Of a DNA stretch of 33,626 bases, positions 1,850 to 27,358 are shown piece after piece (the first letter of the stretch is position 1; the number at the start of each line of letters is the position of its first letter). The position numbers and the translations under genes were made by a program. The notes under the pieces are model-generated. The model searched no databases. It was not told the origin of the DNA and saw nothing but the letters and a program-made list of their open reading frames with translations. Origin of the DNA: a virus. The stretch spans positions 1 through 33,626 of IMG/VR virus record IMGVR_UViG_3300036766_000374, one strand, 5' to 3'.

Positions 1850-1938
1850 TTCCTCATTGAACTTCCTTTTTATTATTATTGAATTCTCTATTACCTTATC
1901 TTATTCTAGAAAAATTTTTTATAATTAAGGAGCTTCAA

Positions 1939-2394
1939 ATGAAAAACTATAAATTATTGAGAAAAGTTCTTGAGGGAACTGATGTAAGTACTATTTTTGA
2001 GGTAACTGAGGATAATTGGATTGCTCCTGTGTTAACTTATCTTAATAGACTTGAAAAGGAGTTATCTCCAGAAGAGAAAAATGTTATTGCTGAAAAAATA
2101 ACATTTGCTAAAAAAATAGCACAAGAGTTATTCTACGTTGGTATTAATTCAAGAATACTTGGTGATACTACTGGAAGAGAAATAACCGTGAACATGATCT
2201 ATGGTACAAACCCTACCGATCCTTTAGTTACCTTACCAATTCTTTCGATAAGAATAAAGAAAGGCTTGCATATAGTTTTAGATAGGTTAAAACAGGCTGG
2301 TGTAGGTGGTCAACTGATAAGGAACGTTGATACATTAAAGCAGTATATTGGTATGTTGTACCATCAATTAATCTCACCACCTGAAGGTGCTTAA
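1939..2394 (+). CDS. Hypothetical protein with capsid-targeting-like leader
   Basis: I choose ATG 1939 (151 residues) because the site AAGGAG lies seven bases before it; the open frame extends 20 codons upstream without a ribosome site. The N-terminus reads MKNYKLLRKVLEG, then DVSTIFE, a pattern shared with the genes at 314 and 7676 and reminiscent of T4 internal-protein leaders. The remainder looks alpha/beta and is not recognised. Its stop overlaps the start of the glycosyltransferase gene (TAATGA), which implies coupled translation. Confidence 0.75.
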   Translation: MKNYKLLRKVLEGTDVSTIFEVTEDNWIAPVLTYLNRLEKELSPEEKNVIAEKITFAKKIAQELFYVGINSRILGDTTGREITVNMIYGTNPTDPLVTLPILSIRIKKGLHIVLDRLKQAGVGGQLIRNVDTLKQYIGMLYHQLISPPEGA

Positions 2395-4109
2395 TGAACA
2401 GAAGAAAAGTCTTACATTTGTCTAAGACAGCAGTTGCGGGTGCAGCTGGCCTTGCTTCTAGGGTAATTGATAAATACTCCCATTGGGAGAGTGATGTTTA
2501 TGTGGAAAAGAAAATCATGACTGTTGGTGATTTTTCTTGTGATTACGAAAATCTAGTGTTATCAGAAGATCTTCAAACCTACATTGACAATGCTGACATA
2601 ATACATTTTCATAACTGGGGGCCGGAAGATTTTCCTCAACTTAAGTTTGAAAATAAGAAATTTATTATCCAGTTGCATTCTGAACCACAAGCCAAGCAAA
2701 TTCTATACAAGAATCATTACAAGGATTGTGTAACTCTAGCACAAAAACATACTTTGTTGTACAAAACTCTTCCTGCCCTACCTAATCTTATTCCTCTATA
2801 CGAGGAAGTTTACACTCCAAGTTTTAATTTGGACAATATTGTAAGGGTAGTTTATAGTCCAACGTCTAAAGTCTCCTTTCCCAACTATGTAAATACTTGT
2901 GCAGGGAAAGGTTATAATGAAACTATAAAGATACTTGACAGAATAAAGAGTATATTCAAAGATAGGATTGAGATCAATATTCTCAGTGGGATCCCAAAGT
3001 GTGAAGTGCTTGCTATAAAGAGAAAAGCTGACATTGTTATTGATGAGTGTGTGACTGGTGGTTATCATTTAAGTTCTCTTGAGGCATTATCTATGGGTTG
3101 TGTTACCATAGCAAATCTTAAACAGGATATGTTGGAGGTGATAAGTCAGCTTACCTCTTCCCCTATTAAGGAAATTCCTTGGGTGAACTGTTCCATTCCA
3201 TCCTTAGAGATAGCTATTATTGAATATATAAATTTAAGGCTTTTTCATAAGGAGAGATTCCTTGATCTTAGAAGAAAGATTAGAGAATGGATGGAGAAGT
3301 ATTGGAGTCCATCAATTATGGCGAAGAAATTTACTGATTTGTATGAAGAAAAACTGGGTATTAAAGATGATCCATGGAGAGGTTTATCATTTTCCTCAGA
3401 TATATTTAAGGTTCGTAGTATACGCTCAGTGATTTATAATGGTTATACTGTTAAAGAAAAGGATAAAGAGGTTTTTATTGAGACCTTCCATAATATTTAT
3501 AAAGGGCGACCAATACTTATAATGGGTAATGGGCCATCAGCAGTTAAGTTTAATACTAACAAATTTGTGAAGAAGTATAATCCTATACTTTTTAACTGCA
3601 ATTTTTACTTTAAGGGATTTAAGAAAAAACCACATTATTGGTTTTGTATTGATTCTACTTGTCTTAAGGAAGCAATTATTGATGTACCTAAAGATATTAA
3701 CATATTCATAAATACTCCAACACAGTTTATTGAAATGTCAAACCCAAGAACTTTTATTTCAAATGCGAGACATGTTATTAATGAATCATTTAAATTTGCA
3801 CCTTACGAGATTGAAAGGCCTTATACTGTTGCTCTTTTAATGACTTTGCTTTCACTTTACATGGGTGGAAGCCCAATATTTATTATCGGTGTTGATTTAC
3901 CAACTGAGAAAGGTGCTAACAATTATTTATATTCCGAGAAGTTTCCTGAGCATAATAGTAAATTTAGGGATTTTTCGAATAACTTTTTCCATATTAGAAG
4001 AGAGTTTAAGTTACTTAAACAAGAGGCTGAGATTAGAGGTATTAAAATATACAATTTGGATCCTAAGTCTGAAAACTTGGATATGTTTGAGGTATTTTCA
4101 TTAATATGA
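2394..4109 (+). CDS. Two-domain glycosyltransferase: GT-B fold plus GNGPS-motif domain
   Basis: This 571-residue protein appears to join two sugar-transferase-like domains. Residues about 1-325 look like a GT4-type GT-B enzyme: an ADIIHFHNW segment near residue 69 and, near 227, SLEALSMG, the usual nucleotide-sugar-binding region. Residues about 345-571 carry ILIMGNGPSA near 376, FNCNFYF shortly after and FIIGVDL near 497. This pattern is typical of the Rossmann domains of GT42 sialyltransferases and of DUF115/Maf-type flagellin glycosyltransferases. The next gene has the same second type of domain. Likely targets are a virion protein or a host surface glycan; the sequence does not decide. 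Family assignment is by motif only. Confidence 0.75.
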   Translation: MNRRKVLHLSKTAVAGAAGLASRVIDKYSHWESDVYVEKKIMTVGDFSCDYENLVLSEDLQTYIDNADIIHFHNWGPEDFPQLKFENKKFIIQLHSEPQAKQILYKNHYKDCVTLAQKHTLLYKTLPALPNLIPLYEEVYTPSFNLDNIVRVVYSPTSKVSFPNYVNTCAGKGYNETIKILDRIKSIFKDRIEINILSGIPKCEVLAIKRKADIVIDECVTGGYHLSSLEALSMGCVTIANLKQDMLEVISQLTSSPIKEIPWVNCSIPSLEIAIIEYINLRLFHKERFLDLRRKIREWMEKYWSPSIMAKKFTDLYEEKLGIKDDPWRGLSFSSDIFKVRSIRSVIYNGYTVKEKDKEVFIETFHNIYKGRPILIMGNGPSAVKFNTNKFVKKYNPILFNCNFYFKGFKKKPHYWFCIDSTCLKEAIIDVPKDINIFINTPTQFIEMSNPRTFISNARHVINESFKFAPYEIERPYTVALLMTLLSLYMGGSPIFIIGVDLPTEKGANNYLYSEKFPEHNSKFRDFSNNFFHIRREFKLLKQEAEIRGIKIYNLDPKSENLDMFEVFSLI

Positions 4110-4741
4110 ATCCAGCTTTTTTGTTAGGTAATGGCAAGTCTAGAGAGACCCTCAACGTTTGTTTTTTCAAAAAATATGGAATGGTCTACGGATGTAATGC
4201 AATTTATAGAGAGCACTTTGTCGATGTCCTTTTTGCAGGTGATACTCCTATGATTATTGAAATTCTTAACAAAAAGTATAAGGGTGAATTTATTTATAGA
4301 GTTCCTGATCAGCATCTTTTTAGATCTGTTGAAGGAAAGTTGTATAGTGATTATGGTTACGCAACTGGGCCAACTGCCCTTAAAATATTATGCTACAGGT
4401 TGGCAAACACTATTACTGATGTTTTTCTCATTGGATTTGATTTATATGGATTACCTGATGGAAAGGTAAACAATATATATGCAGGGACAGAAAATTATGC
4501 AAGTCGTAGTTCCCAGGCTATCCCTCATAGTAATTGGACTAATCAACTTTGGAATATCTTTTGTGAGTATGATAATATAACTTTCCATCGAGTTGGTAAT
4601 ACAAAAGATACTATGCCTGAAAAATGGAAAAAGTTACAAAATATAAAATTTATATCAGTTGAAGATATGGGAGATATGTTAACAAATTGTCTTATTATAA
4701 GGGAAGAGTATAAAGATGAAGGATTTACCAAGCCTTGGTAA
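4106..4741 (+). CDS. GNG-motif Rossmann protein, sialyltransferase/DUF115-like
   Basis: A 211-residue protein overlapping the previous gene (ATATGA). It has FLLGNGKSRE at residues 5-14, VYGCNAIY at 27-34, FAGDTP at 43-48, ATGPTALK at 86-93 and VFLIGFDLYG at 106-115. The order matches the C-terminal domain of the preceding protein: a GNG(P/K)S loop, G/N-C-N strand end and IG(V/F)DL strand. This looks like a separate copy of that domain type. In known families these proteins move sialic or related nonulosonic acids, or carry a pterin-kinase-like fold. The exact donor and acceptor cannot be read from the sequence. Confidence 0.65.
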   Translation: MNPAFLLGNGKSRETLNVCFFKKYGMVYGCNAIYREHFVDVLFAGDTPMIIEILNKKYKGEFIYRVPDQHLFRSVEGKLYSDYGYATGPTALKILCYRLANTITDVFLIGFDLYGLPDGKVNNIYAGTENYASRSSQAIPHSNWTNQLWNIFCEYDNITFHRVGNTKDTMPEKWKKLQNIKFISVEDMGDMLTNCLIIREEYKDEGFTKPW

Positions 4742-5717
4742 TGGTAATTATTTTATTATAGAAGAAGAAAAAGAAAATTACTTTCTGGTTGAGAAAGAAC
4801 TTTTTAGGAAGGGTGACTGTATAGACTTCCCTCTTTATTTAAAGGATAAAACTGGAATTAACCAAGTCTTTGATTTTTGTGATATTTGTATTGTTGAAAA
4901 GAATGTTTCTTGGTTCCATGATGAAATTGTTATTCGGATATCTAATTTACCATTATATGAAGAATTTATTAAAGGTAAGAAAGAAAAATACCCTCATTTA
5001 ATAGCAAAAGAGCATCTTAGACTTGCTATAAGGAGAATGTTCTTTAATTACGAATGCTTTAATTATCTTGATTCTCTTCAGATAACAACTAAGGAAATGG
5101 TTGATATAATATTAAATGATACTGCAGCATTTTCACATTTACTCTCTAGAAACAAATTTGATTACTGTACATATAATCACTGTGTTGAGGTTGCGATATT
5201 CTCAGTTTTTATTGCCATAAGTGTTGGTATAGATAATCCTGATGAGCTGAGTGATATATGCCTTGGTGGTGTTCTTCATGATCTTGGTAAGATATTTATT
5301 CAACAAAGTATTCTAAACAAACCAGGTAAGGTTACTAATGAGGAATTTCAGGAGATAAAGAAGCACACAACTTATGGAGAAGTTTTACTTTCTTCTTATG
5401 GACTCCCTAATAAGATTGTTAAATTTGCCTTTGAACATCATGAGAGAATTGATGGTAATGGTTATCCAAATAATCTGTGTAAAGAAGAACTTTTTGTCAA
5501 TAGTAGAATAATAGCGATAGCCGACGTATTCGACGCTTTAACTACTCATCGTCCGTACAGAAATAATTTATCTGTAACCGAATCTCTTGAGATAATGAAT
5601 ATTGATAGAGGTCATTTTGATTCATGTTTATTCAAGAGTTTTATCAAGCATTTGTTTGAAGTGATAAGTGTTCAGAACAAGTTAAAAGAAAATGAATTAC
5701 TATGTTGTGATAACTAA
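4716..5717 (+). CDS. HD-GYP cyclic di-GMP phosphodiesterase
   Basis: A 333-residue protein starting inside the end of the previous gene (26-base overlap) behind a GGGAAG site. The HD-GYP domain spans about residues 145-320 and looks complete: H155, the HD pair in LHDLGK (187-192), the LNKPGK segment, KHTTYG (H217), HHERIDGNGYP (241-251) and ADVFDALTTHRPYR (269-282). These are the metal ligands and GYP signature of enzymes that hydrolyse cyclic di-GMP. Residues 1-100 resemble the poorly conserved N-terminal domain of many stand-alone HD-GYP proteins. No signal peptide or membrane segment is seen, so a cytosolic enzyme lowering host cyclic di-GMP is expected. It is followed by a weak terminator. 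Confidence 0.92.
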   Translation: MKDLPSLGNGNYFIIEEEKENYFLVEKELFRKGDCIDFPLYLKDKTGINQVFDFCDICIVEKNVSWFHDEIVIRISNLPLYEEFIKGKKEKYPHLIAKEHLRLAIRRMFFNYECFNYLDSLQITTKEMVDIILNDTAAFSHLLSRNKFDYCTYNHCVEVAIFSVFIAISVGIDNPDELSDICLGGVLHDLGKIFIQQSILNKPGKVTNEEFQEIKKHTTYGEVLLSSYGLPNKIVKFAFEHHERIDGNGYPNNLCKEELFVNSRIIAIADVFDALTTHRPYRNNLSVTESLEIMNIDRGHFDSCLFKSFIKHLFEVISVQNKLKENELLCCDN

Positions 5718-5750
5718 ATAAGACTAATTCTCAGTTTTATTTAACTTTTT
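5716..5750 (+). terminator. Weak intrinsic terminator after the HD-GYP gene
   Basis: AAATAAGACT (5716-5725) pairs with AGTTTTATTT (5733-5742), with one G-U pair and a seven-base loop. AACTTTTT follows. The stem is almost all A-T, so strength is doubtful, but position and the T run fit the end of the 2394-5717 block. Confidence 0.4.
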
Positions 5751-5752
5751 GG

Positions 5753-5782
5753 TTGACAAGTCACTTGTCACCATATGAGTAT
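5753..5782 (+). promoter_or_regulatory. Possible promoter with overlapping inverted repeat
   Basis: A perfect -35-like TTGACA lies at 5753-5758. The best -10-like hexamers (TATGAG at 5774, GAGTAT at 5777) are poor. Bases 5754-5770 form an inverted repeat, TGACAAG-TCA-CTTGTCA, that covers the -35 element and could be an operator or a small hairpin. It sits between a terminator-like hairpin and the strong ribosome site of the gene at 5815, which is where a new transcript would be expected to start. Confidence 0.35.
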
Positions 5783-6224: not shown

Positions 6225-6926
6225 TTGCTGTTTCTTGGGCATCCAATTTTTGAATCAGAATTGAATGTCAAGGATATTTATGACTGTGAAACTAAAAAAT
6301 CTGGTGTTTATTTGAGGGGTGCAATGCTTGAGTATTATAAGCAAGCACCTTATCAAGTTAGAGATGTTACTGGATTTAATGCTGTTGGTACTAACTACAT
6401 ACAAGTTAAGAATTGGGTAGATAATATTGCGGGTATGGCATCGTTAGATAATACTGATGACATTTTCTTCATTGGTGTTTTGAACATGCAGTTTGAAGAA
6501 CTAGATGAGATTAATGTTCTTCTTGGTGTTAATCAATTTTTGATAAACTCTGTTTCAACTGAGACATATTTCGATATGCTTCAGAGAAGAACAATGTTTG
6601 ACTTATTTTCTGGTGATCCATATTATGAAATTGATTCTGTTCTTGGTATTGTAAGAATCTCAGCTGGTATGGCTGGTACCATGACAACAACGTTAGGGTT
6701 TGGATTTCTTATCCCTGATTTTATCCCTGAAACTCATCTTGGCCTAGTTTCAAAGATGGTTGCACTGAAGTTTTGTGAAGCCGTCCTTGCCGAGAGAACT
6801 ACTGGTAATATTGGTGGGGATGTTCGACTTGAGTCTGACTATATTAACACAAGGATAACTGACTTAAGAGAAGAGGTTAATAAAGCTCTGAATGATATTC
6901 AGCCGACAATTTTTATGTGGGGATAG
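6225..6926 (+). CDS. Probable virion structural protein, start uncertain
   Basis: The frame is open from 6135 and reads convincingly as protein well before the first usable start. There is no ATG, GTG or TTG until TTG 6225, which has no ribosome site; ATG 6324 has GAGGGG before it. From 6225 the product is 233 residues, with well-mixed hydrophobic and charged residues and a Gly/Thr-rich hydrophobic segment (MAGTMTTTLGFGF) about two thirds along. The family is not recognised. Since the upstream portion (with HEYHEY from the tandem repeat) looks coding, the true protein may begin in the gene at 5815. It ends two bases before the TusA-like gene. Confidence 0.65.
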   Translation: MLFLGHPIFESELNVKDIYDCETKKSGVYLRGAMLEYYKQAPYQVRDVTGFNAVGTNYIQVKNWVDNIAGMASLDNTDDIFFIGVLNMQFEELDEINVLLGVNQFLINSVSTETYFDMLQRRTMFDLFSGDPYYEIDSVLGIVRISAGMAGTMTTTLGFGFLIPDFIPETHLGLVSKMVALKFCEAVLAERTTGNIGGDVRLESDYINTRITDLREEVNKALNDIQPTIFMWG

Positions 6927-6927
6927 T

Positions 6928-7155
6928 ATGGAATTAATAACTTTAGATGTGCGTGGTCTACGATGTACAGGGCCAACAGGTACAATACTAAAAGAGATTC
7001 AAAGTAAGAATTTACAACCAGGGACAAAATTGAGGGTGATCGCTGACTGTCCTATGTTTCCTATGAATGTCGAAAAATGGTGTAAAGTGACCAAGAGAGA
7101 TATCTTATGGGAAAGTAAAGATGAGAAGGATAAAATCTGTATAATTTCAATATAG
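6928..7155 (+). CDS. TusA/SirA-like sulfur-carrier protein
   Basis: ATG 6928 is chosen because GGGGAT lies just before it; the frame extends 12 codons further into the previous gene. The 75-residue product has the TusA layout: LDVRGLRC (residues 6-13) with the predicted sulfur-accepting Cys13, then PGTKLRVIADCP (31-42) and VEKWC (48-52). Family members carry a persulfide on this cysteine and hand sulfur to tRNA thiolation, cofactor or sulfur-oxidation enzymes. The usual CPxP is altered to C-T-G-P, so activity is not certain, but the cysteine is kept. No partner such as a cysteine desulfurase is visible nearby. Confidence 0.75.
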   Translation: MELITLDVRGLRCTGPTGTILKEIQSKNLQPGTKLRVIADCPMFPMNVEKWCKVTKRDILWESKDEKDKICIISI

Positions 7156-10849: not shown

Positions 10850-12337
10850 ATGCCATCCCCAAAGATAATAGTAAGAGAGTTTGACTTTAGTCAATACCTT
10901 CAACCACTGGTGGACTTTTCTATTGGTGTTGTTGGTGTTGCTTCTAGAGGGCCAATCAATAAGAAAACCTTGATAACATCAATTGATCAGTTAATTCAAT
11001 TCTTTGGTCCTCCAAGTGTTCCTGATCAGTATCCCGCAATACTTGGTCTTTACCAGTACTTAAAACTAGGAAGGCTTGTGTGGTTTGTGCGTGTTGCTGG
11101 CATTACAGCTGCAACTGCAACTGTTTCTGTACCTGCTTCCGATTCATCTGTTTCAATGACAATTTCTGGTATTGAAGTTGGTACATACTTTAATCAGTAT
11201 AGAGTTGATATTACTGATGCTGGTTCAGGCAAGTATAATTTGTATATTATTAATACAACTACCCATAAGATAATGGAATCTTGGAAGGGTGTTGATAATA
11301 CCATTGTGGTAAGTACTATTAATAACAACAGCAAGTACATTTCTATTGAGCTTGGTACAGCAATCCCTGTATTTGGTTCTTATAGATTATCTGGTGGTAA
11401 TGACGGGTTAACTAACCCAGATTACATTGGTGAAACTCTTGATGGTGTGAGAACTGGTCTCCAGATTTTTAGACCTGCAGAAGAAACTGACATATGGGCA
11501 CTTTGTGTTCCTGGTAACATAGCTGAGGAAGTTCAAACTGAGCTTATTGACATTGTTTCAACTAGAAAAGATTGTGTAACTTTCCTTGATACCCCCTATG
11601 GTATTGGTGTTCAGAATGCTGTCGACTTCGCTAATGGTGAAGGTGATTATGTTGGTAGAGTAATTCTCCAGTCCTCTTATGCAACTGCTGAGTTTGGTTG
11701 GTCACGTGTTTATAATCCCTACACTGATAAAAGCGAATATATTCCTCCTTGTATTGGTAGATTATATGCTGCTACTATGACTGTGCAAGATTACCAGATT
11801 TGGTTTGCTATGGCAGGTGCTCGCCGTGGTAGGCTTGATTGGTCAATGGGTGTTGAATACAATGCTGATGAGGGTGAAAGAGATTACATGTATGCAGTTG
11901 GTTCAAACGCTATTAATCCAACTATTGACTATCCTGGTTATGGTACAATGATATTTGGTCAGAAGACTCTTGCAAGAAGTGTCTCTCATCTTGATGAGTT
12001 GAACGTTAGATTTCTTCTTATCTATATAAGAAGGGGTATGAAGAAACTTGCTATTCCGTTATTGATGGAGCCTAATGATGAATTCCTTTGGAATGAATTT
12101 CTCTATATTGTTAGGCCATTCCTTGTGAATGTTCAGAATCGTCAGGGATTAAATGACTTCTTGGCAGTTTGTGATAAATCAACTAATCCTGATCAAAATA
12201 CAACTATGTATGCTAAACTTCTCCTTAAACCTACTTCTGCAGCTGAAGTTATTGTTATTGATATGAATATTCTTAGAAATGATGCGAATTTCAATGAGTA
12301 TGTTGGTACTGGTGCTGAGATAGAGCAATTTAGCTAA
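10850..12337 (+). CDS. Contractile tail sheath protein
   Basis: A 495-residue protein behind a strong GGAGGAT site, as expected for an abundant virion protein. The N-terminus has the sheath pattern: a phage-sheath-like strand, GVVGVASRGPINKKTLITS and FFGPP. The C-terminus (YIRRGMKKLAIPLLMEPN through PFLVNVQNRQGLNDF) matches the conserved sheath core where subunits swap strands. The middle (about residues 90-210) is a more variable beta-rich insert. It polymerises around the tail tube and contracts on infection. The tube gene follows after a hairpin. Confidence 0.92.
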   Translation: MPSPKIIVREFDFSQYLQPLVDFSIGVVGVASRGPINKKTLITSIDQLIQFFGPPSVPDQYPAILGLYQYLKLGRLVWFVRVAGITAATATVSVPASDSSVSMTISGIEVGTYFNQYRVDITDAGSGKYNLYIINTTTHKIMESWKGVDNTIVVSTINNNSKYISIELGTAIPVFGSYRLSGGNDGLTNPDYIGETLDGVRTGLQIFRPAEETDIWALCVPGNIAEEVQTELIDIVSTRKDCVTFLDTPYGIGVQNAVDFANGEGDYVGRVILQSSYATAEFGWSRVYNPYTDKSEYIPPCIGRLYAATMTVQDYQIWFAMAGARRGRLDWSMGVEYNADEGERDYMYAVGSNAINPTIDYPGYGTMIFGQKTLARSVSHLDELNVRFLLIYIRRGMKKLAIPLLMEPNDEFLWNEFLYIVRPFLVNVQNRQGLNDFLAVCDKSTNPDQNTTMYAKLLLKPTSAAEVIVIDMNILRNDANFNEYVGTGAEIEQFS

Positions 12338-12353
12338 CAAATATAATAATAAT

Positions 12354-12382
12354 ACTCTGCTGGCTAATGTCACCAGCAGAGT
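12354..12382 (+). promoter_or_regulatory. Strong hairpin between sheath and tube genes
   Basis: ACTCTGCTGG (12354-12363) pairs perfectly with CCAGCAGAGT (12373-12382) around a nine-base loop. The tube gene's ribosome site (CGGAGGG) begins at the next base. There is no T run, so a terminator is unlikely. It may be an RNA-processing or stability element that separates sheath and tube messages. Confidence 0.6.
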
Positions 12383-12393
12383 CGGAGGGCGTT

Positions 12394-12906
12394 ATGGCAA
12401 ATAGCAAATGGCTTACAAGTAGATCAATGATTAACTGGGAAGTTAATAGGCAGAACATGGGGTACATGGGTATTACTGGTATAAGTGCTGATGAAAATTT
12501 CTCCCACTCTGTCCAAAGTTTTTCTTTACCCAACATAACTAATGATATCATTGAAATTCCTTATGGTAATGACAAAGTACATATCTCTGGTAGAGTTACG
12601 TTTGAACCACTCGCTATAGTAATGATTGATTTTATTGATCACCCTACTGCTAGAATATTGAAAGATTGGAAAGATAAAGTTTATGGATTTAAGAATGCAA
12701 GTCTTGGTAGACCTAATGATTACAAATGTGCTGGTTATTTAGTTCAAGTTGACCCTAAAACTGGCGAAGATCTTAGAAAATGGGATTTTTTTGGTGCATG
12801 GCCTTCAGCTCTTCAATTTGGTAACATAGATCAGACTGGTGGTGAAAAAATAACTATATCTCTAACTCTTTCTGTTGACTTTATAGAACCAGTTTTTTTT
12901 AAATAA
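12394..12906 (+). CDS. Tail tube protein
   Basis: ATG 12394 is chosen for the GGAGGG site (12384-12389), giving 170 residues; nine upstream codons overlap the hairpin. Size, position right after the sheath, and the beta-rich pattern with a helix (DHPTARILKDWKDKVYG, about residues 83-99) and a last strand ITISLTLSVDFIEPVF fit phage tube proteins of the T4 gp19/XkdM type. Hexameric rings of it form the inner tube through which DNA passes. Confidence 0.85.
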   Translation: MANSKWLTSRSMINWEVNRQNMGYMGITGISADENFSHSVQSFSLPNITNDIIEIPYGNDKVHISGRVTFEPLAIVMIDFIDHPTARILKDWKDKVYGFKNASLGRPNDYKCAGYLVQVDPKTGEDLRKWDFFGAWPSALQFGNIDQTGGEKITISLTLSVDFIEPVFFK

Positions 12907-13512: not shown

Positions 13513-14430
13513 ATGGATTCGAAGAAGATAGAAGGAACTGTTGAGAAGGTGGGTGGTCATAGGGGAAGAGGTGCTTCTGATACCTCTACAACCCCTCCAA
13601 CTGAAATCGAACTTACTCCAGCTGAGATAGTGGATAGTATCGAGGGTCTAGGTAATAGTCTCAAAACGTCTTTAAAAAGTGAGTTTATAATAGAAGTTAA
13701 ATTACCGACTCTAGGAAAGGCACATACTTTTGGGGACACTATAAATCTCCGGCCAATGAAGACTACAGAAGAGAAGTATTTCTCAACTATGGCTGGTAAA
13801 GCCAATGCACATAAGATTATATCCCAGCTTATAAAATCATGTTCTGATATCCCCATTGATCCAATAGATCTAATTATAGATGATAGATTATATATACTAT
13901 TTAAATTACGTTCTATAACTTATGGTAACATCTACAATATTGATATTGCTTGTAGTGCATGTGAGACAAAGTACACCTATAATTACAATATTGACTCATC
14001 TGAAATTAGATATCTAACAGGTGATCTTAATTTTGAGGCAAATCTCCCAGTAAGTGGTGATAAACTCCTTTTAAGAAGAATTACTGGTAGGGATGAGCTT
14101 GCTGTAATGAACTATGAAAAACAAGTTGGGAAAACAAAAAGAGAGATCAAAAGAGGTCCTGACAGTAATGATACTATTGAAGGTGATGATAGCTATATTT
14201 ACAGACTTGCACTTCAAATTTATAGTGTAAATGGTATAGAGATAAAGGGCAAGGAAAGATTGTCCTATGTCGAAAACTTGTATGGGAAAGATTCTCTTAT
14301 GATAAGACAATCTATTGACGATAACTCTCTTGGATTAGAATTAAGATTTATTGCAGAATGCCCAAATTGTGGTGCTGACAATGAAACTCTTATGCCTATG
14401 ACTCCTGAGTTTTTTCGTCCACGGGTATGA
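13513..14430 (+). CDS. gp26-like baseplate hub/tail assembly chaperone
   Basis: A 305-residue protein behind GAGGAG. After a disordered start (residues 1-35), residues 55-300 resemble the T4 gp26-type family. YGNIYNIDIACSACETKY (138-155) has the usual YGN-x-Y strand and a CxxC pair (C147, C150); a second pair, C283/C286 (AECPNCGAD), probably completes a zinc site. These proteins help build the baseplate hub and initiate the tail. The gene stands directly before the tape measure, and its end overlaps another frame that looks like the usual C-terminal partner (gp51-like), reached by a likely +1 slip at TTT TTT C near codon 301. Confidence 0.7.
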   Translation: MDSKKIEGTVEKVGGHRGRGASDTSTTPPTEIELTPAEIVDSIEGLGNSLKTSLKSEFIIEVKLPTLGKAHTFGDTINLRPMKTTEEKYFSTMAGKANAHKIISQLIKSCSDIPIDPIDLIIDDRLYILFKLRSITYGNIYNIDIACSACETKYTYNYNIDSSEIRYLTGDLNFEANLPVSGDKLLLRRITGRDELAVMNYEKQVGKTKREIKRGPDSNDTIEGDDSYIYRLALQIYSVNGIEIKGKERLSYVENLYGKDSLMIRQSIDDNSLGLELRFIAECPNCGADNETLMPMTPEFFRPRV

Positions 14431-14644
14431 GTCTTACCTCGAAGATGTTGTTGACGGAATTCTCCTATCTCCCGGACAAGTTGAAGACCTTGATAAAAAG
14501 ATTTTTCAACTTGTTTATTATGGGAGATTTTCATTTTCAGACATCCTGGCTATGTACCCTTTAGAAAGAGAATATTACTATAAAATGTTAAGTGACGCAA
14601 AAAGGGAAGAGGAGATGGAAGTTAAGAGGGCTAATAAGAAATAA
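14402..14644 (+). CDS. gp51-like frame extension of the chaperone, probably by +1 frameshift
   Basis: This frame is open from 14402 to the TAA at 14642-14644, which overlaps the tape-measure ATG. It has no ATG until 14552. Read from 14417 it gives 75 residues, including KIFQLVYYGRFSFSDIL and YPLEREYYYKML, then a charged tail. This is the pattern of small baseplate hub assembly proteins of the T4 gp51 type, where a helix is followed by P-x-x-(E/R)-x-x-Y-Y. Joined after Phe301 of the upstream gene it gives a 376-residue fusion. The absence of a start, the fit of the join and the place before the tape measure favour programmed frameshifting, as in many tail chaperones. Confidence 0.65.
   Translation, partial: LLSFFVHGYESYLEDVVDGILLSPGQVEDLDKKIFQLVYYGRFSFSDILAMYPLEREYYYKMLSDAKREEEMEVKRANKK
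14407..14430 (+). other. Candidate +1 frameshift site
   Basis: The 0-frame reads GAG TTT TTT CGT and stops at TGA 14428. Shifting +1 at the second TTT re-pairs tRNA-Phe on TTC, its preferred codon, and continues as GTC CAC GGG TAT GAG. The six-T run followed by C is a plausible slippery site; a -2 slip would give the same frame. Confidence 0.5.
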
Positions 14645-17600
14645 TGGCAATTTTTGATAGTTTATCATACGGCTCTGGGAATAATTCTGCAGATGCAGCT
14701 TTATCGCTTATCTTGAGTCTTATTCCAGAGGTTAATAAAGTCCAAGGTCAGGCAGCTGTGTCTGATGTTCAGGGATATTTGTCAAAAATACAAAAGGGTG
14801 TTTCGTCCTCTTTTAAAACTATGGGGGATGAATCTGATCAACTTGTTTCACGTGTTCTTGGAGCTGTTGGTGCAGGAGGATTGCTTCAGCAGTTATGGAA
14901 TGGTTCAGGCTCAACTATTTCTAAATGGGGAGTTGTTGCTCTCCCTGCTTTCTTAGCTGGAATTTACTCGCCTTACAAAGAAATGATTGACAAGATGGTA
15001 TTTGATAATTCTCGTTTCAAAGATAATTATGATGATATGTCTAGTTATATTTTGAAAAAGGGAATTAGGTTTGATACACATGAAATCAATAGTGCTATGA
15101 AAATTATTATGAAATCTGGTGCTCCTTCCTTGAATGTTGTTAGACAGTTAACTACTCAAGCTCTTGATCTTACTAAACAATTAGGGTTATCTGCTGAGAG
15201 TGCTGCTGGTCTTGTTGGTGAAATGTCTCAGATATGGGGGTTTGATAAAGGTCAAATTGATCATATTGCTACTGCCATCTCTGTTGTTTCTGCAAATAGT
15301 ACAATGTCTGCTGAAGAAGTTGCGAAATTAAATATGGAATTGTTGAAGACTACAGCTGGTTACAGAGGATTTACTCACTCTACTAAAGAGGCAGCTAAGG
15401 CACAAGAAGAAGCACAAGTACAGTTACTTGCAGTTTCTGGTGCGCTGAGTAAACAATTTATAGATTTCAATGTTATAAACAAAGGTCTTAAAGATATCAA
15501 TGAATCATATAGCTCTGCTGGTATTTCAATGAAGGCATTTGTTAAAACTCAAATGAATCTCTCAGAAAAAGAACTAACTCAATTATTCTGGGATCCTACA
15601 AAAGCAGCAGAGGCATCTATGACAGTTGCTACAGCTATGCAGAAACAATTAAGCGATGGTATAGATCAGACAATGAATCATACAAAGGAAGAGCAAAATG
15701 AGATAAATCGAAATAATGCTGATAGCATACATATGAATATGATACAACTGGAATCAATGACTGGTATTCATATGGAGTTTGCTGAGGCTATGAGATTGTC
15801 AAAGATGAATGCGAAAGAAGCTGAACGAGAAATAAGCAAAATGATGTTAGCTGCTAAAGATACAAAAAGGCTTCAAGATATTCAAAATAAAGCCATGAAT
15901 GACCTTAAACAATTTATAGATGTTTTAAAGCAAATTGGTTTATCAATTTTTGCTGTTATAGGTGCTAAGATCACTCAGATATTAATGCCAGTACTTAATA
16001 TATTTGTTTGGGTTATTACAAAATTGGCAGATCTTTTTGGTGGTGTTGATGATGAGATGGAAAATATTGATAATAAGACAAGAGGAATTCAAATGGTCTT
16101 TGGTGCTATTGGCAGCGCTATCACAACAGTAGTCTCCTATGCAATATTATTAGGTAGTGCTATGGCGTTTGTTAGTCTTGTTTCAGGAACAGTTCTTAAA
16201 AATTTTATAGCTTCAGGTAAGGCTATTTTAGAAAATATAAGGAATGTTGGTCTTTTACAAGCTATTAAAGGTAAGGTTATTGGAGTTGGACAAGTAGGTG
16301 GAGAAATATTACAAACTGGAATTGATAAGGTTATGGGGAAAAGTAAATCCCCTGAAGTCACTGTACTTGAAAGAATAGAAAAGGTTTTAATAGACTTAAG
16401 GCATCTTTCAGGTGGTGGTAAAAGTAGTATGTTCCAGAAGACTGATGAACATTTTGTAAAAGGGGAAATGGATAAATATAGTAAGTTTAATACTCCTCCT
16501 TCTGGTGGTGTTATGGGTGGTATTGTAACCCCAAAAGTTGAGCAGACTGCACATAGATTTGGTGCTATTGGTAGTGTTGTAAGTAATGGTATTGCAATTC
16601 CAAAAGTTGAGCAGACTGCACATAGGTTTGGTGCTATTGGTGGACACGTTGGGGGAATTGGTGTTGATGAAAAGTCTCTTAGTAAAATGAAAGATGCCAC
16701 AAAAATGATGAAAATTCATGGTCAGGAAGTAAAGGAGTCTTTTTGGGCAGCTGGTTTTGCAGCTCAAAGAGGTGGGAAAACTATTGATGGTGTATTTCAT
16801 TCAAATACAAAAGCTGCTTCACATTCATTTAAAGTTTTAGGTACTGGTCTTAAAGATACAGGGAATAATTTTAAGAAAACTGCTGGTATATTCGGGGAAG
16901 GTCTTATTGGTCAGAAAGGTATGACATCCCTTAATAAAAGCGTTGATGTGATTGGCACTGGGTTTACAAAGATTGGTAATACAGCAAAAACAGGTGCAAA
17001 AACTGCTGGTGATGCACTGATAAAACTTGGCCCTAAATTTAAAGACATTGGTGGGAAAGTAAAGGAAGGAGCAAGTACGATATCCAAAGCCTTTAATCTT
17101 GACCCAGTATGGAAGAAAGTATCTGGTAGTTTTGATAAATTTATGAATACTGGTATGGTAAAATCTGTTGGTAAAGGAGTTAGTTCAGCAATAAAGACTA
17201 TTGGTGCAGCTATGCCTGGTGTAACAGGTGCAATAACTAAATTTGCTGGTGCAGCCACAGAATCAGTTGCTGGTGTAGTTAACACTGCTATGAGTGGTAT
17301 TGGTGAAGCTATGGTTGGTAATGTAAGTTTTATAGAAGCTCTTGTCCCAGCGTTGTTTAGTCCTGTTGGTCTAGCCATTGGTGCTGCTATGTTACTTGGT
17401 GCTGCTGGAGTGATGAACAACAAAGATGCGTGGATGAAATCCTGGAATGAAGGTGATATAGCTGGAGCTATAGGTGGAGTGATTAAGGGGTTCTTCAAAG
17501 GGCTGACCGTTGATCTTTTTGGTTATGCTGTTGCAGCTATGGAATTTATTGTCAAAGCTATTTTTGGTGGTGATAGCGATACTTATAAAGCATTTAAGCA

Positions 17601-19071
17601 ATTTACTGACACTATGATGAGGGTGTTTAATTCAGTTTTTAATATTATATGGAAAGTTATAAAATTAGCATTTGTTCCTTTAAGGATTGCAATAGCAATC
17701 CTCGCTGTGCCACTTCAAGCTATCTTCTGGTTATTTGGGAAAGTGTTTGAAGGGATTGCATGGGTATTTGACAAGATAGGTGGTTTTATTGATTCTGTTG
17801 TAAAAGCAATAGATGGTTTTATTAGTTTCTTTACTGATGGTATCCAATTACTTGTAGATTTAGTAAAGAGTATATTTACTGGAAACTTCTCAGAAGTTCT
17901 TGGTAAAATAGGGGAGCATATTTGGAAAGGCATAAAGGCATTTGGTGGACTCATACTTGATGTTATACTATGGCCTTGGAAAATGGCACTGAAATATATA
18001 CAACTTGTATTCAGAGTAGATAAATGGATTCTTGGAATGCTTTGGTCAGGTGTTAAATCAATTTTTAGTCTCCTTATGTGGCCATTTAAAATGTGGTGGG
18101 CAGCAATGAAACTTATTTTCAGAGTAGATAAATGGATTCTTGGAATGCTTTGGTCAGGTGTTAAATCAATTTGGGCTGTTTTAACATGGCCTTTCCGAAA
18201 GGCATGGGAATGGATAACAAGTTTATTTAGTGGTGATAAAAGTATTGGGTTATTGATTCTTGATGGGTTAAAAGCAATTAGTGGTTTTATTATTGATGTT
18301 CTATTATGGCCATTTAAAAAGATATGGAACTTTATAGGATCATTGTTTGGTGCTGATAATCTTGGTTCAATGATTGTTGATGGACTTAAGGCTATAGGTG
18401 GATTTATTATTGATGTCTTGACTTGGCCTTTCAGGAAGGTATGGGGTTGGATATCTGGTTTATTTGGCAGTGGAGAAGGTAAGGGTATTGGGTTATTGAT
18501 TCTTGATGGGTTAAAATCAATAGGTAGTTATTTATTTGATGTAATAACAGCACCATTTAAAAAAGCATGGGAATGGATTAAAGGTTTATTTGGTGGTAAA
18601 GGTATTGGGTCATTAATTCTTAGTGGATTAGAAAGTGTTGTTGAGGCAGTTGGATCGGTAATTGGTTCTGTTGTAGGTGGATTAGGGACAGCTGTTAGTG
18701 CAGTCGGAAATGTTGTTGGATCTATCACTGGGGGTGTTACAGATATTATTGGTTCAGCAGTTTCTGGTGTTTCAAATATGATTAGTAGTGATAAAGAAAA
18801 AATAACAAATTCAACTGATCTTACTAACTCAGGTAAGTCTGCTGCAACTGATCTTACTAATACTAGACAAATCAACCCAAAGGAAAATTTAGCTTCTACA
18901 GCAGAAAGTCAAGGCATTACAGGTACTACTGAAACTAAAAGATCTAAAGAACCTCTTGTTGATATTGATCCTATAGTTAAAGCACTTTACGAGTTGATCA
19001 ATATAGTAAGAGGTGGGCAGATTAAGTCAAGACTTAGTAACAATGATATGATAACGGATGGATATTTATAA
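14644..19071 (+). CDS. Tail tape measure protein
   Basis: The longest gene here, 1475 residues, in the normal place between the chaperone and the baseplate genes. Residues 1-430 are mostly helical with coiled-coil character. Residues 430-540 include hydrophobic segments. A Gly/Lys-rich middle has a duplicated PKVEQTAHRFGAIG. Residues about 895-1080 include several strongly hydrophobic stretches. Residues about 1120-1320 are W-rich repeats of the type WPFKKxW. The last 100 residues are Ser/Thr-rich. At about 1.5 angstrom per residue, a rule known for these proteins, the tail would be near 220 nm. It sets tail length and is probably ejected, with its hydrophobic parts meeting the host membrane. 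Confidence 0.9.
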   Translation: MAIFDSLSYGSGNNSADAALSLILSLIPEVNKVQGQAAVSDVQGYLSKIQKGVSSSFKTMGDESDQLVSRVLGAVGAGGLLQQLWNGSGSTISKWGVVALPAFLAGIYSPYKEMIDKMVFDNSRFKDNYDDMSSYILKKGIRFDTHEINSAMKIIMKSGAPSLNVVRQLTTQALDLTKQLGLSAESAAGLVGEMSQIWGFDKGQIDHIATAISVVSANSTMSAEEVAKLNMELLKTTAGYRGFTHSTKEAAKAQEEAQVQLLAVSGALSKQFIDFNVINKGLKDINESYSSAGISMKAFVKTQMNLSEKELTQLFWDPTKAAEASMTVATAMQKQLSDGIDQTMNHTKEEQNEINRNNADSIHMNMIQLESMTGIHMEFAEAMRLSKMNAKEAEREISKMMLAAKDTKRLQDIQNKAMNDLKQFIDVLKQIGLSIFAVIGAKITQILMPVLNIFVWVITKLADLFGGVDDEMENIDNKTRGIQMVFGAIGSAITTVVSYAILLGSAMAFVSLVSGTVLKNFIASGKAILENIRNVGLLQAIKGKVIGVGQVGGEILQTGIDKVMGKSKSPEVTVLERIEKVLIDLRHLSGGGKSSMFQKTDEHFVKGEMDKYSKFNTPPSGGVMGGIVTPKVEQTAHRFGAIGSVVSNGIAIPKVEQTAHRFGAIGGHVGGIGVDEKSLSKMKDATKMMKIHGQEVKESFWAAGFAAQRGGKTIDGVFHSNTKAASHSFKVLGTGLKDTGNNFKKTAGIFGEGLIGQKGMTSLNKSVDVIGTGFTKIGNTAKTGAKTAGDALIKLGPKFKDIGGKVKEGASTISKAFNLDPVWKKVSGSFDKFMNTGMVKSVGKGVSSAIKTIGAAMPGVTGAITKFAGAATESVAGVVNTAMSGIGEAMVGNVSFIEALVPALFSPVGLAIGAAMLLGAAGVMNNKDAWMKSWNEGDIAGAIGGVIKGFFKGLTVDLFGYAVAAMEFIVKAIFGGDSDTYKAFKQFTDTMMRVFNSVFNIIWKVIKLAFVPLRIAIAILAVPLQAIFWLFGKVFEGIAWVFDKIGGFIDSVVKAIDGFISFFTDGIQLLVDLVKSIFTGNFSEVLGKIGEHIWKGIKAFGGLILDVILWPWKMALKYIQLVFRVDKWILGMLWSGVKSIFSLLMWPFKMWWAAMKLIFRVDKWILGMLWSGVKSIWAVLTWPFRKAWEWITSLFSGDKSIGLLILDGLKAISGFIIDVLLWPFKKIWNFIGSLFGADNLGSMIVDGLKAIGGFIIDVLTWPFRKVWGWISGLFGSGEGKGIGLLILDGLKSIGSYLFDVITAPFKKAWEWIKGLFGGKGIGSLILSGLESVVEAVGSVIGSVVGGLGTAVSAVGNVVGSITGGVTDIIGSAVSGVSNMISSDKEKITNSTDLTNSGKSAATDLTNTRQINPKENLASTAESQGITGTTETKRSKEPLVDIDPIVKALYELINIVRGGQIKSRLSNNDMITDGYL
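16531..16641 (+). repeat. 69-base duplication in the tape-measure gene
   Basis: A segment of about 42 bases starting CCAAAAGTTGAGCAGACTGC at 16531 recurs at 16600, nearly identical, 69 bases (23 codons) apart. It encodes PKVEQTAHRFGAIG twice. Confidence 0.85.
18010..18172 (+). repeat. 108-base duplication in the tape-measure gene
   Basis: Bases 18010-18064 recur at 18118-18172, essentially identical over 55 bases, 108 bases (36 codons) apart. Both encode FRVDKWILGMLWSGVKSI. Diverged units of about 40 codons (WPFKKxW, SLFG, IGLLILDGLKAI) continue to about 18640, so the region looks grown by repeated duplication in frame. Confidence 0.85.
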
Positions 19072-22270: not shown

Positions 22271-23128
22271 ATGAAAAATTCAGATATATTAAAAGAACAA
22301 GATAAGTATTTTTCTAATCGTAAACTTTATGGTCACTACAGGGGTATTGTTGAATCAGTTACCGATCCTCTTATGTTGGGTAGAGTAAAGGTACGGGTCT
22401 CAGTAGTTTATGGCACCCCGAATGAGATAGATACTGATCATTTACCCTGGGCTTATGTCTTACAAAATAATTATGGCGGTTCTTATGAAAAGGGTTCGTT
22501 CATTGTTCCTGCTATTGGTTCTGGTGTTGTTCTTGTTTTTGAAGATGGTAATTTGAAGTATCCAATGGTTGTAGGATCTTACTATTCTATGCCTATTGAA
22601 GTCAGAGGGGAGGTTATGGAAGTTCAAGGCCATGTGCTCATAACGAGATTCCCGTTAAAGAGGTCTGAAGCCCCGATAGAAGCTATGACTATGATAAATG
22701 ATAAACCATCAGTGTTGGTTAAATTTAAGTCCGACTTCACAACTTCTTGGGAAGAAGTAAAGGGTAAATTCTTCAATGATGTGAATGCTAATGTTCCAAA
22801 TGATTTTGGAACTGTATTTAGAGATAGATATGGAGTGTTTAAAGATTTTCAAATTGGTAGAATAAATACAGATGACAGAAGAATTAGAATGAGCTTAGGA
22901 AAAGTGTTTGCAGGTTTCCAATTAAAATGGGAGGATTTGAAGAACCATATGGAAATATCTGAAGATGATGATGAAATCAGGATTTCTATTCTAGGGACAC
23001 CTATTTGTGGGTTGAGAATACAAAGAGATTCTGGTGAACTTGTTCTCACTTTCTCTAGAATTGATGTGTTTGGTGATGTTAATGTAATTGGTGATCTTAA
23101 AGTTACTGGAAAGATGGTGGGAGGTTAA
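22271..23128 (+). CDS. OB-fold baseplate spike protein (gp5/gpV-like)
   Basis: A 285-residue protein. Residues 19-110 match the OB domain of the gp5/gpV family: YGHYRGIVESVTDPLMLGRV, LPWAYV, NNYGGSYEKGSF, VPAIGSGVVLVFEDG and PMVVGSYY. No lysozyme domain is present. The last 35 residues have short V-x-G-D repeats (IDVFGDVNVIGDLKVTG), the style of a trimeric beta-helix needle. It should cap the hub and pierce the outer membrane. Confidence 0.85.
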   Translation: MKNSDILKEQDKYFSNRKLYGHYRGIVESVTDPLMLGRVKVRVSVVYGTPNEIDTDHLPWAYVLQNNYGGSYEKGSFIVPAIGSGVVLVFEDGNLKYPMVVGSYYSMPIEVRGEVMEVQGHVLITRFPLKRSEAPIEAMTMINDKPSVLVKFKSDFTTSWEEVKGKFFNDVNANVPNDFGTVFRDRYGVFKDFQIGRINTDDRRIRMSLGKVFAGFQLKWEDLKNHMEISEDDDEIRISILGTPICGLRIQRDSGELVLTFSRIDVFGDVNVIGDLKVTGKMVGG

Positions 23129-23129
23129 G

Positions 23130-24401
23130 ATGACTGATAACAATGAACTATGTGGTTGTACTGAGTCAATAGGGGAGTTTAGTGTTTTATATGCCTATGC
23201 AAACAATATTGAAGATTGTGGAAATACAAGTATTGTTTGTGTAGATATATATGATAATCAGTTATATGTTCTCTTGAATTATGGTTCAGTTTATCCTAAA
23301 TCAAGAGTAAGAGTTTTTGACTTAATTGGAAATTTAGTTAATGATTCTCTTATTGAATCCTCGATAACTTTCACAGGGATGTCCTGTTCTGGGTCAATTA
23401 CATTAAGCTCTGCAGAGTTAAATAGCAACAATAAATACATAAGCAAAATTTATGACTATAATGTAAATGGGATTTTCCTTACTGTTAATGAAATTGATCT
23501 TCTAGAAAACATTATAATAAGTTCTCTGAATGATAACCTTGCAATAGTAAGAAATTTTAATTTATATGGTAAAGGTTCAATCTATTCATCTAGCTCTATG
23601 ACAAAATTATTTGATGTCAATTTGTACCCTTATGGGGTTGCTTACTTCAATAATTGTTATTATGTTTCAGGTGTTATATCAGGAGATCCGGATACATATA
23701 TAATACAGAAGTATGATGGTGGTACCTATAAGTATTTAAGTGATGTATCTAAAAGTGATTTCTCTGACCTAAGAGGACTTGTTGTTGTAGATGACAAACT
23801 ACTTATTTGTAACTCAGCAAGAATAGATGTTTTGAATGAGCTTGAAGATATAGTTTGCTACCTAAGTCACGATAATTCATTCTTTACTTTTGCTCGATAC
23901 GATGGGTATGGTGTGTTATACTTTTGTGACAATAGTAATTGTTCAATAAAGATGTTCACATGTCCAAATTTTAGTCCAACTTCAAACAATTATAATAATC
24001 TCTCTTCATCTTACTCTTTTACACTAACAGAATTTGGTAGTTCCTCAGTTGGTTCCCTTAATATTACAGCTATACAAGAGGTAACGATTAACACAGTAGC
24101 TATAATAAGAGGGAGTAGTGACTTTTCTTTTTTTGATACGTTACCAATAAGTGTGTCAACTGGTGGAACTATTGGGTTGCAGATAACATTTATTCCTTCT
24201 AAAATTGGTGTTCGAAATGGTGTTGCTCTTGTTAATTTTAACGAGTTTCCTCTCAGAGGTATCGCTTTAGACCCTAATGATACAAGTACACTTGGTAATC
24301 CTAATATGCCAGCTGAAGATTCAGATACATTGAATATATTAACAGCTGTTTCAAGCAGTTTTGAAAATATGGAAAGAAACATTCCTGAGGACTGGATTTG
24401 A
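23130..24401 (+). CDS. Propeller-like protein with ASH/HYDIN-type domain
   Basis: ATG 23130 is used because GGGAGG lies just before it (423 residues); the frame also extends into the previous gene. Residues about 15-290 show repeated blade-like strands (LYVLLNYGS, LRGLVVVDDKLLICNS, ARYDGYGVLYFCD), suggesting a beta-propeller. Residues about 300-385 read like an ASH/choice-of-anchor-D immunoglobulin fold: FFDTLPISVSTGGTIGLQIT, FIPSKIGVRNG, then FPLRGIAL. A glycan- or receptor-contacting baseplate accessory is plausible. The stop overlaps the next start (TGATGG). Confidence 0.6.
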   Translation: MTDNNELCGCTESIGEFSVLYAYANNIEDCGNTSIVCVDIYDNQLYVLLNYGSVYPKSRVRVFDLIGNLVNDSLIESSITFTGMSCSGSITLSSAELNSNNKYISKIYDYNVNGIFLTVNEIDLLENIIISSLNDNLAIVRNFNLYGKGSIYSSSSMTKLFDVNLYPYGVAYFNNCYYVSGVISGDPDTYIIQKYDGGTYKYLSDVSKSDFSDLRGLVVVDDKLLICNSARIDVLNELEDIVCYLSHDNSFFTFARYDGYGVLYFCDNSNCSIKMFTCPNFSPTSNNYNNLSSSYSFTLTEFGSSSVGSLNITAIQEVTINTVAIIRGSSDFSFFDTLPISVSTGGTIGLQITFIPSKIGVRNGVALVNFNEFPLRGIALDPNDTSTLGNPNMPAEDSDTLNILTAVSSSFENMERNIPEDWI

Positions 24402-26932
24402 TGGTAGTAATAGATTTACAAGGTTATATAAATCTTCACCTATTTGCCGACCGCCCTATCTTCTCTATAAAGGCTGTCGATTTTGAAGGTGATCAGGCTA
24501 TACTTCCAGAAGGGAAACATCTTCGTCTCATTAATTGTAAGGTTAAAACTTTGATAATTAATGGTGGTAAATCTGCAGTAGTTCTCCAGAAAACTACTGT
24601 TGATAATCTGATTGTAAATCCTGGCACTTTGTTGGAATGTACTAGTGACTGTACATTTCAGAAAGTATCTATCCAGGGGTCAAGAATAAACATGTCGTTT
24701 AAATCTGCTAATGAAATACTTGTAGCACAAACAACAGGGTTTATTTATGATTGTCCCTCAATTAATAAGTTTACTATCAATGATAGTAGTGTATTGGATT
24801 TTGTCAATGTTGAAAAGATTAAAACATTAACTGTTTCAGCTTCCACACTAAGATCGACAGATATAAAAATAACTGATATTAAAGACATTAAAAATTCAGA
24901 CATTACTATTACAGGAATGGAGGTTGAAACAATTCATAATGTTGCTAATAGTAGGTTAAAACTCTATAATACTCTAATTAATAATTTTATTGGTATCATA
25001 TCAAATAGTATCATCAGATTTCAAGATAGTGAAATAGAAAAATTTGATGGAAGCATCACAAAGGATTCTGAAATAACTTCGAAGAATAATTCATATTTAA
25101 AGGGTATTGGTACTACTATTACAGATTCAACTTTCTATTCAAATAAGGATGAGATAAAGTTATCAATATCTGTCTCTTCAATTGATAATTCAAAGATTCT
25201 CTTCAAGAATGGAAAATTCTCAGCATCAAGTACTTTTGCTTCTTCATTAAAAGATTCAACACTTGATATTAGGGATATGGACGATTTTTCGTCCTCAGCT
25301 GTTTTTATAGATTCTTGTGATGCAAGTTTAGTGTCAATTGAAAATTTAGATTTTTCAGGATTGTCAGAATCTTTCTGTGCAACAATTACGAGTTCAAGAT
25401 TAACTTTCGATATTGTTTCCAACATAAATACAAGTGGAAGTTTTATATTAAGTGCCTCCAATGGCACTATGGTAAGGTTTATTAATTGTGAAAACTTTGC
25501 TCCAATTAATTCAATAATTGATACAGTATCAGATTCTGATATTACTTTTAATAAAGTTACCAATGTTGAACCAGGTAACACTATGATTGGTAGTTTGTTT
25601 AACAGCACTTTTGTTGCCACTATGTTAAAGAATTGTCAGCCAACAAACTTTTTTAATACTACAAGTAATTGTGACATACATATTACTGATAGTGATGTTA
25701 AGTGCACTGGTTTAACTATTACCTCTTCAGCCATTGAATTATTGTTTTCCTCTTTAGAAGTTACAAATTTGTCTTTGGGTCCAACTGTCACTGGAAAGAT
25801 AATAAATTCCAAGGTTAAGGGGATTAATTGCACATTTGAAAACTCTTCAATAATTATAGAAAGAAGTGTCCTTGATTATACCAATCATAGCTATATTGAT
25901 GGTTCAGCTATTAGATATGACTCTGCTGATAACATAAATTGTACTAGTCTCACTATAAGTGACTCCTATTTTAGGTATGTCGGTGGCGTTTTTACAGTTA
26001 CAGGTAATTCAACAATTGAAGGATCAAATATTGAAGGTATAAAACTGAATCTTAAAGGCACAGTTTCTGTAGATGATGCTTCCATTATTGCCTCAGGTTC
26101 CTCTGTAGATGCAAGTAATCTTACTGTGAAAAAAACTTTGTTAAAGTGTCCTTCAATACAAGGAACAACTGCAACCCTTGAAAGGGTTAATGTAATTGGA
26201 ACACTAAAGAGTAGCACTTTGACAGCTAAGTTTACAAATGGTCAGGAATTGCAACTTACAGGGGTTAGTACTTTAGACTATATTAGTTTCCACAAAATAA
26301 TTGCTGAGGATACTCTAAAAGTCTATTATGGGTTTATTGGAGGTATTGATGGTTCTGATGTTTCAACTGTTTGCTCTAATATTGGGGTATGTAAAGCATC
26401 AGATCATGGAGTTGTTCAAAGAAGTTTTATTGGATACCTTGAAGGGAAACCTGATACAGCTGAAAGTGTGATTTGTAATACCAATATTACATCCGGAACT
26501 GCTCAAAATATTATTGTTTGTAAAGGTGCTGGATTAGATAATGTCGCTAATAGTATAATTCTTGGAACTAACATTACTGGGGGAGCTACTGGTTGTGTGT
26601 TAGCTAATTGTTCTGTATCCCAGTCAAGCTACTCTTTGATTGTTTACCCTAATAGTGGAGTTGGAACTTATAATGGTTGTTTTTCTGTAGGTGTTCCAGA
26701 TCCAAGTGGAGATTACACTCGTAGTGTAATACATTGCTCTGATAGTTATTCTGGTACTTATGCAAATTGTGCTTCTTTATGTAGTATTCCTATCCAACCA
26801 ACTGTTGCTGGTATAATAAATTTAATAGAAACAAGTATTGGTGCTAAAGATGGTATTAATTTTTACTCTGTAGGTGAACAAGTTCATTATGCTCATGTGA
26901 CGCCTGCAATGTCATGTAGCTGTTGCATATAG
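24401..26932 (+). CDS. Giant beta-solenoid protein with Cys-rich end
   Basis: Start ATG 24401 overlaps the previous stop; 843 residues. The body (about residues 10-680) repeats short strand-turn units rich in Ser, Asn, Asp, Thr and Ile (LINCKVKTLIING, SIDNSKILFKNGKFS, SDITFNKVTNV) with a period near 20, as in right-handed beta-helices. From residue about 665 the sequence changes to Gly/Cys-rich (NIGVC, VICNTNI, GCVLANCSVS, VIHCSDS), ending in MSCSCCI. Between spike and gp25-like genes, it may be a baseplate-borne receptor-binding or enzymatic solenoid. No catalytic motif is recognised. Confidence 0.7.
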   Translation: MVVIDLQGYINLHLFADRPIFSIKAVDFEGDQAILPEGKHLRLINCKVKTLIINGGKSAVVLQKTTVDNLIVNPGTLLECTSDCTFQKVSIQGSRINMSFKSANEILVAQTTGFIYDCPSINKFTINDSSVLDFVNVEKIKTLTVSASTLRSTDIKITDIKDIKNSDITITGMEVETIHNVANSRLKLYNTLINNFIGIISNSIIRFQDSEIEKFDGSITKDSEITSKNNSYLKGIGTTITDSTFYSNKDEIKLSISVSSIDNSKILFKNGKFSASSTFASSLKDSTLDIRDMDDFSSSAVFIDSCDASLVSIENLDFSGLSESFCATITSSRLTFDIVSNINTSGSFILSASNGTMVRFINCENFAPINSIIDTVSDSDITFNKVTNVEPGNTMIGSLFNSTFVATMLKNCQPTNFFNTTSNCDIHITDSDVKCTGLTITSSAIELLFSSLEVTNLSLGPTVTGKIINSKVKGINCTFENSSIIIERSVLDYTNHSYIDGSAIRYDSADNINCTSLTISDSYFRYVGGVFTVTGNSTIEGSNIEGIKLNLKGTVSVDDASIIASGSSVDASNLTVKKTLLKCPSIQGTTATLERVNVIGTLKSSTLTAKFTNGQELQLTGVSTLDYISFHKIIAEDTLKVYYGFIGGIDGSDVSTVCSNIGVCKASDHGVVQRSFIGYLEGKPDTAESVICNTNITSGTAQNIIVCKGAGLDNVANSIILGTNITGGATGCVLANCSVSQSSYSLIVYPNSGVGTYNGCFSVGVPDPSGDYTRSVIHCSDSYSGTYANCASLCSIPIQPTVAGIINLIETSIGAKDGINFYSVGEQVHYAHVTPAMSCSCCI

Positions 26933-26940
26933 GAGATTAA

Positions 26941-27348: not shown

Positions 27349-27358
27349 AGGGACGATG

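Follow-up and report, generated by a model that had tools for sequence, protein, structure and literature searches.

A phage genome fragment encodes an HD-GYP phosphodiesterase domain packed behind glycosyltransferase-like genes

An apparently intact gene for an HD-GYP phosphodiesterase is carried by a contractile-tailed phage, known from an IMG/VR virus fragment (33,626 bases) that was analysed over its whole length and is referred to here as the window. The HD-GYP class is already known in phages; the copy in the window adds a member without a close relative, in a somewhat unusual context. We put at about even the chance that the protein is an active two-metal enzyme that hydrolyses c-di-GMP in the infected host and, together with the glycosyltransferases encoded beside it, alters the cell surface.

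The HD-GYP identity of the open reading frame was confirmed by profile and sequence searches. In Pfam it matched HD_5 (E = 5e-28) and HD (1e-16), and a phmmer search of the PDB returned PmGH from Persephonella marina (4mcw, 1e-31), followed by V-cGAP3 (5z7c, 4.5e-26); matches of this strength place the assignment far past chance. The top NCBIfam match, under cut-off, was the NosR c-di-GMP phosphodiesterase family. The catalytic domain spans residues ~146-325, and the motifs quoted in the original prediction were all found within it (HDLGK at 188-192, HHERIDGNGYP at 241-251 and ADVFDALTTHRPYR at 269-282). No PHROG family matched the protein, nothing in BFVD scored below E 1e-3, with Gp79 of phage G coming closest, and a single-protein scan of IMG/VR revealed no close relative. 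Two matches from rumen genomes (38%; one labelled Riflebacteria) were rejected as kin, since the tree does not place them with the window's protein.

Alignment to PmGH, using the residue numbering of PMC4159591, showed that the phage protein retains the seven ligands that the two HD-GYP groups share (H155, H188, D189, H217, H241, H242 and D270), as well as the catalytic-site residues D149 and K192, together with D273. The GYP triplet follows the HH pair at 249-251, and an RPYR motif contributes R279 and R282. From PmGH to the phage protein, D183 corresponds to D149, H189 to H155, H221/D222 to H188/D189, K225 to K192, H250 to H217, H276/H277 to H241/H242, G284-Y285-P286 to 249-251, D305 to D270, D308 to D273 and R314 to R279, with K317 replaced by R282. 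In an alignment with 52 relatives, drawn from viral and genomic contigs, the invariant positions included H155, H188, D189, K192, H241, the GYP triplet and R279. The catalytic site is thus complete, as predicted, with its seven core ligands, D149, K192, GYP and RPYR. The claim that all metal-binding motifs are present held for the seven ligands that all HD-GYPs have in common; the exception is the eighth, PmGH E185, whose position is occupied by Cys151.

HD-GYPs are split by the residue at the E185 position; the group without a carboxylate there, in which Tyr or Phe is usual, is expected to bind two metals (PMC4159591). The carboxylate that marks the three-metal E/D-T-G subfamily is absent from the phage protein, and the position is Tyr in 31 of the 52 relatives. 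With Cys151 in place of E185, the phage protein falls in the predicted two-metal group, to which, judged by sequence, it probably belongs. Two-metal HD-GYPs cut once only, converting c-di-GMP to pGpG (PMC8177086). As for specificity towards 3',3'-cGAMP, the glutamine reported to be important in PmxA is not kept by the Vibrio enzymes (PMC8177086).

Structure prediction agreed with the sequence assignment. An AlphaFold2 model built from the 52-relative alignment has the HD-GYP fold, with block-mean pLDDT of ~90 or more over residues 151-310 and low confidence over residues 1-91, and its top Foldseek matches were c-di-GMP HD-GYP structures: 4mcw (PmGH), 9rbz (DvhD, c-di-GMP-bound) and 4r8z (PA4781). 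PmGH is therefore the top PDB match by both sequence and fold, sharing seven of eight ligands, GYP and RPYR/RPYK; it differs in having E185 and three irons where the phage protein has Cys151, and in an N-terminal region that was unrelated in the searches made. The N-terminal ~145 residues of the phage protein had no match in Pfam, in the PDB or among the HD-GYP loci collected; a resemblance to an N-terminal region of deltaproteobacterial HD-GYPs is conceivable.

Bd1817-like HD-GYPs are inactive, a precedent that counts against catalysis, and the phage protein might likewise bind substrate or regulate via protein contacts, with no useful catalysis. Cys151 in a ligand position would fit such a role, as would an N-terminal region without relatives, which could be an interaction module. 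We nevertheless regard this as unlikely: Bd1817 is without two residues that are retained here along with the rest of the core site, namely the Tyr of GYP and the final Asp, and the E185 position is usually Tyr or Phe in the other HD-GYP group (PMC4159591), as it is in most of the relatives.

The phage origin of the record was supported by the surrounding genes, all of which lie on one strand (Table 1). The tail and baseplate genes, which include those for a gpV-like spike and wedge proteins, follow the same order as in two other phages, the Bacillus phage SP-15 (222 kb) and the Listeria phage LIS04 (182 kb), with identities of 22-46%. The sheath-tube-hub-baseplate order is that of SP-15-like phages (Thornevirus relatives), the best-conserved proteins being 30-46% identical, and by sequence the window phage is a distant relative only of this group. 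Its genome is inferred to be large from the SP-15 kinship, the 33,626-base window being too short to give its size. The SP-15 and LIS04 records had no match to the HD-GYP protein, and a search for kin by the sheath and the phrog_23653 protein returned SP-15 and, beyond it, distant fragments only, with an HD-GYP at none of those loci. The phrog_23653 protein, 44-46% identical with its SP-15 and LIS04 counterparts, has a weaker match in Rhodococcus phages, whose copy carries the annotation minor tail protein.

Table 1. Positions of the HD-GYP gene and other features in the window
Feature	Position	Strand	Remarks
171-aa ORF, no function assigned, first of run	1879-2394	+	start codon uncertain
571-aa protein, N-terminal half glycosyltransferase-like, C-terminal half MptE/DUF115-like	2394-4109	+	
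GT42 sialyltransferase-like protein (phrog_30607)	4106-4741	+	PHROG 1e-26
HD-GYP phosphodiesterase gene	4716-5717	+	ATG to TAA, 333 aa
A+T-rich 11-bp hairpin, then T-rich stretch	5715-5743	+	after HD-GYP stop
Near-perfect inverted repeat TTGACAAGTCACTTGTCA	5753-5771		between HD-GYP gene and next gene
Small protein matching TusA sulfurtransferase	6892-7155	+	PF01206, E 7e-12, over cut-off
Neck/tail module	8893-29848	+	syntenic with Bacillus phage SP-15
Sheath	10850-12337	+	
Tube	12367-12906	+	
Baseplate hub	13513-14430	+	
Tape measure	14644-19071	+	
Baseplate genes	22271-28786	+	
phrog_23653 protein	29348-29848		

HD-GYPs are common in bacteria, and some records labelled as phage HD-GYPs are plainly bacterial (in MaAM05, nusG, rplK and rplA adjoin the gene), so that a mis-assembled contig, or a passenger host gene with no phage role, has to be weighed. 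We consider it very improbable here: the overlapping upstream gene is phage-typical, an SP-15-like tail module lies downstream on the same strand, and, among the genes tested, the HD-GYP gene (G+C 30%) comes closest to the rest of the window in synonymous codon use.

The HD-GYP gene is the fourth of a tightly packed run. The 171-aa ORF that opens the run, for which Pfam and PHROGs gave no family match, ends on the first base of the gene for the 571-aa protein. The latter matches phrog_2170 glycosyltransferase (5.6e-5) and, under the Pfam cut-off, an MptE-like family (1.3e-6), and has a relative in the huge phage LR756508. The third gene overlaps the start of the HD-GYP gene by 26 nt. Its AlphaFold2 model (pLDDT 84) had CstII and a Pasteurella sialyltransferase as its only significant PDB folds; together with Pfam CST-I matches in 14 of 55 family members, the model suggests a GT42 sialyltransferase-like fold for the phrog_30607 family. 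This is a very widespread phage family with no assigned function (loci L174-L253 and the window's own copy), with relatives on at least 578 IMG/VR viral stretches. Because the four genes overlap or abut, they are probably co-transcribed, with the HD-GYP gene last. The hairpin after its stop codon (whole-region z -1.6), not called by a G+C-based terminator scan, is a possible, weakly indicated end of that transcript. The inverted repeat beyond it, of which the window holds no further copy, is a possible operator or promoter. The claim that the HD-GYP gene is embedded in a structural-gene region was broadly upheld: the sheath gene lies ~5.1 kb downstream, but the immediate partners are glycosyltransferase-like and SP-15 synteny begins only at 8893. 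Further along, the TusA match marks a possible phage-carried sulfur-relay gene and perhaps hints at a sulfur-metabolising host.

HD-GYPs were also found in other viral contigs. A scan with two degenerate motifs built from a seven-sequence alignment, whose counts are lower bounds, detected ~98 HD-GYP stretches in IMG/VR viral contigs (78 distinct loci retained), at least 20 of them on contigs with a terminase gene. Among 50 HD-GYP records searched, window included, Terminase_6N exceeded the Pfam cut-off in 21 and phrog_2 matched in 31, mostly at the same places; among the contigs with a terminase are ones of 110, 156, 179, 234, 293, 315 and 545 kb. HD-GYP neighbours in viral records match phage primases, helicases, major head protein and integrases, while some HD-GYP contigs that lack phage genes could be plasmids or flanking host DNA. 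Many of these proteins carry REC, GAF-like or PAS-like N-termini, as judged by reading the sequences, and identities to the window protein reach at most 43% over partial alignments; the differing N-termini and low identities suggest that phages acquired HD-GYPs repeatedly. In the tree, the window protein sits on a long branch (1.22). It falls in a supported group of seven, L015 and L014/L028 among them, within which its immediate sister is uncertain (92/51). L015, on a 110 kb IMG/VR contig, resembles the window in its one-strand genes; its HD-GYP lies 0.75 kb after the major head protein and is followed by two helicases, and the record holds a terminase. It differs in its 35% identity, its unlike N-terminal region and the lack of a CST-I match in the record. 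No CST-I gene over cut-off was seen in 16 other long HD-GYP viral records, so that no general association of HD-GYP with CST-I genes emerged; this is a weak test since the profile also misses the window's divergent copy.

Phage HD-GYPs had been called rarely described. This holds for annotated reference phages, for which PHROGs gave no match and BFVD none below 1e-3; the reports from jumbo phages (PMC7824862) and the ~98 viral stretches speak against it. A tblastn search of annotated phage records (E 1e-3) gave no convincing phage HD-GYP. Faecal 'Bacteriophage sp.' matches, from unannotated and unverified records, were left out of the evidence. 'Microcystis phage MaAM05' (L002, MW495066.1 26664-43038) was rejected as well; with nusG, rplK, rplA, secE, ilvD and secretin genes present, the record looks like a bacterial chromosome labelled phage.

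What the enzyme might do was considered from the observed sequence, predicted fold, metal-site residues, phage context and gene packing, from which we infer activity, substrate, timing and role. c-di-GMP is the signal that chiefly governs whether bacteria live attached or swim. In the proposed mechanism, the HD-GYP would linearise 3',3'-linked cyclic dinucleotides in the infected cell, most likely c-di-GMP to pGpG; the resulting drop in host c-di-GMP would turn off c-di-GMP-dependent surface polysaccharide or adhesion, and the enzyme and the two glycosyltransferase-like proteins of the run would remodel the host surface, leading to superinfection exclusion or to release from aggregates. We counted in support of this mechanism, with c-di-GMP as the most likely substrate, the homology, the residues, the fold near PmGH and DvhD, the NosR match, residence in a phage and packing with glycosyltransferase genes; against it, some HD-GYPs favour 3',3'-cGAMP or pGpG (PMC8177086). 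There is a precedent in phage N4, whose receptor is the c-di-GMP-dependent NGR glycan and from which the phosphodiesterase PdeL shields E. coli by lowering c-di-GMP (PMC8669472). By analogy, a phage with glycosyltransferases and a phosphodiesterase could alter receptors or matrix. A fuller version, in which the genes form a dedicated surface-remodelling cassette that stops c-di-GMP-dependent receptor or matrix polysaccharide and redecorates the cell, while a new N-terminal domain directs the enzyme to its target or controls it, is speculative and we hold it to be rather improbable.

The main and serious rival is counter-defence, in which the enzyme would degrade CBASS-type alarm dinucleotides (3',3'-cGAMP, c-di-GMP) and thereby keep the cell from starting its abortive response. 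HD-GYPs across jumbo phages were predicted to be counter-nucleotide enzymes, an explicit proposal of this kind (Iyer et al. 2021; PMC7824862). The jumbo-phage proteins (e.g. QDB70412.1, compared by description only) are likewise HD-GYPs of large phages with a proposed attack on cyclic nucleotides; they are not close in sequence, to judge by the tblastn result, and they differ in context, the tail genes of the window being preceded by a glycosyltransferase cassette that holds the HD-GYP copy. The recurrence of phage-type HD-GYPs behind N-terminal domains unrelated to one another also favours counter-defence, as does the second rank among PDB matches of the 3',3'-cGAMP-specific V-cGAP3, which shares the HD-GYP core but has a second, weaker matching stretch, against a single HD-GYP domain in the phage protein. 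On the other side, the gene has glycosyltransferases and late structural genes beside it, not early or anti-defence ones, PADLOC shows no defence-related neighbour apart from generic HD similarity, and substrate specificity is unreadable from sequence. We see counter-defence as a tenable but less probable role than c-di-GMP hydrolysis with surface alteration.

No report of measured activity for any phage HD-GYP was found in the literature searched, which was mostly without subscription journals. If active, the enzyme described here would give a phage a direct means to shift host c-di-GMP, or to erase a defence signal, and would be a compact, assayable case of an idea so far proposed only from jumbo-phage genomes.
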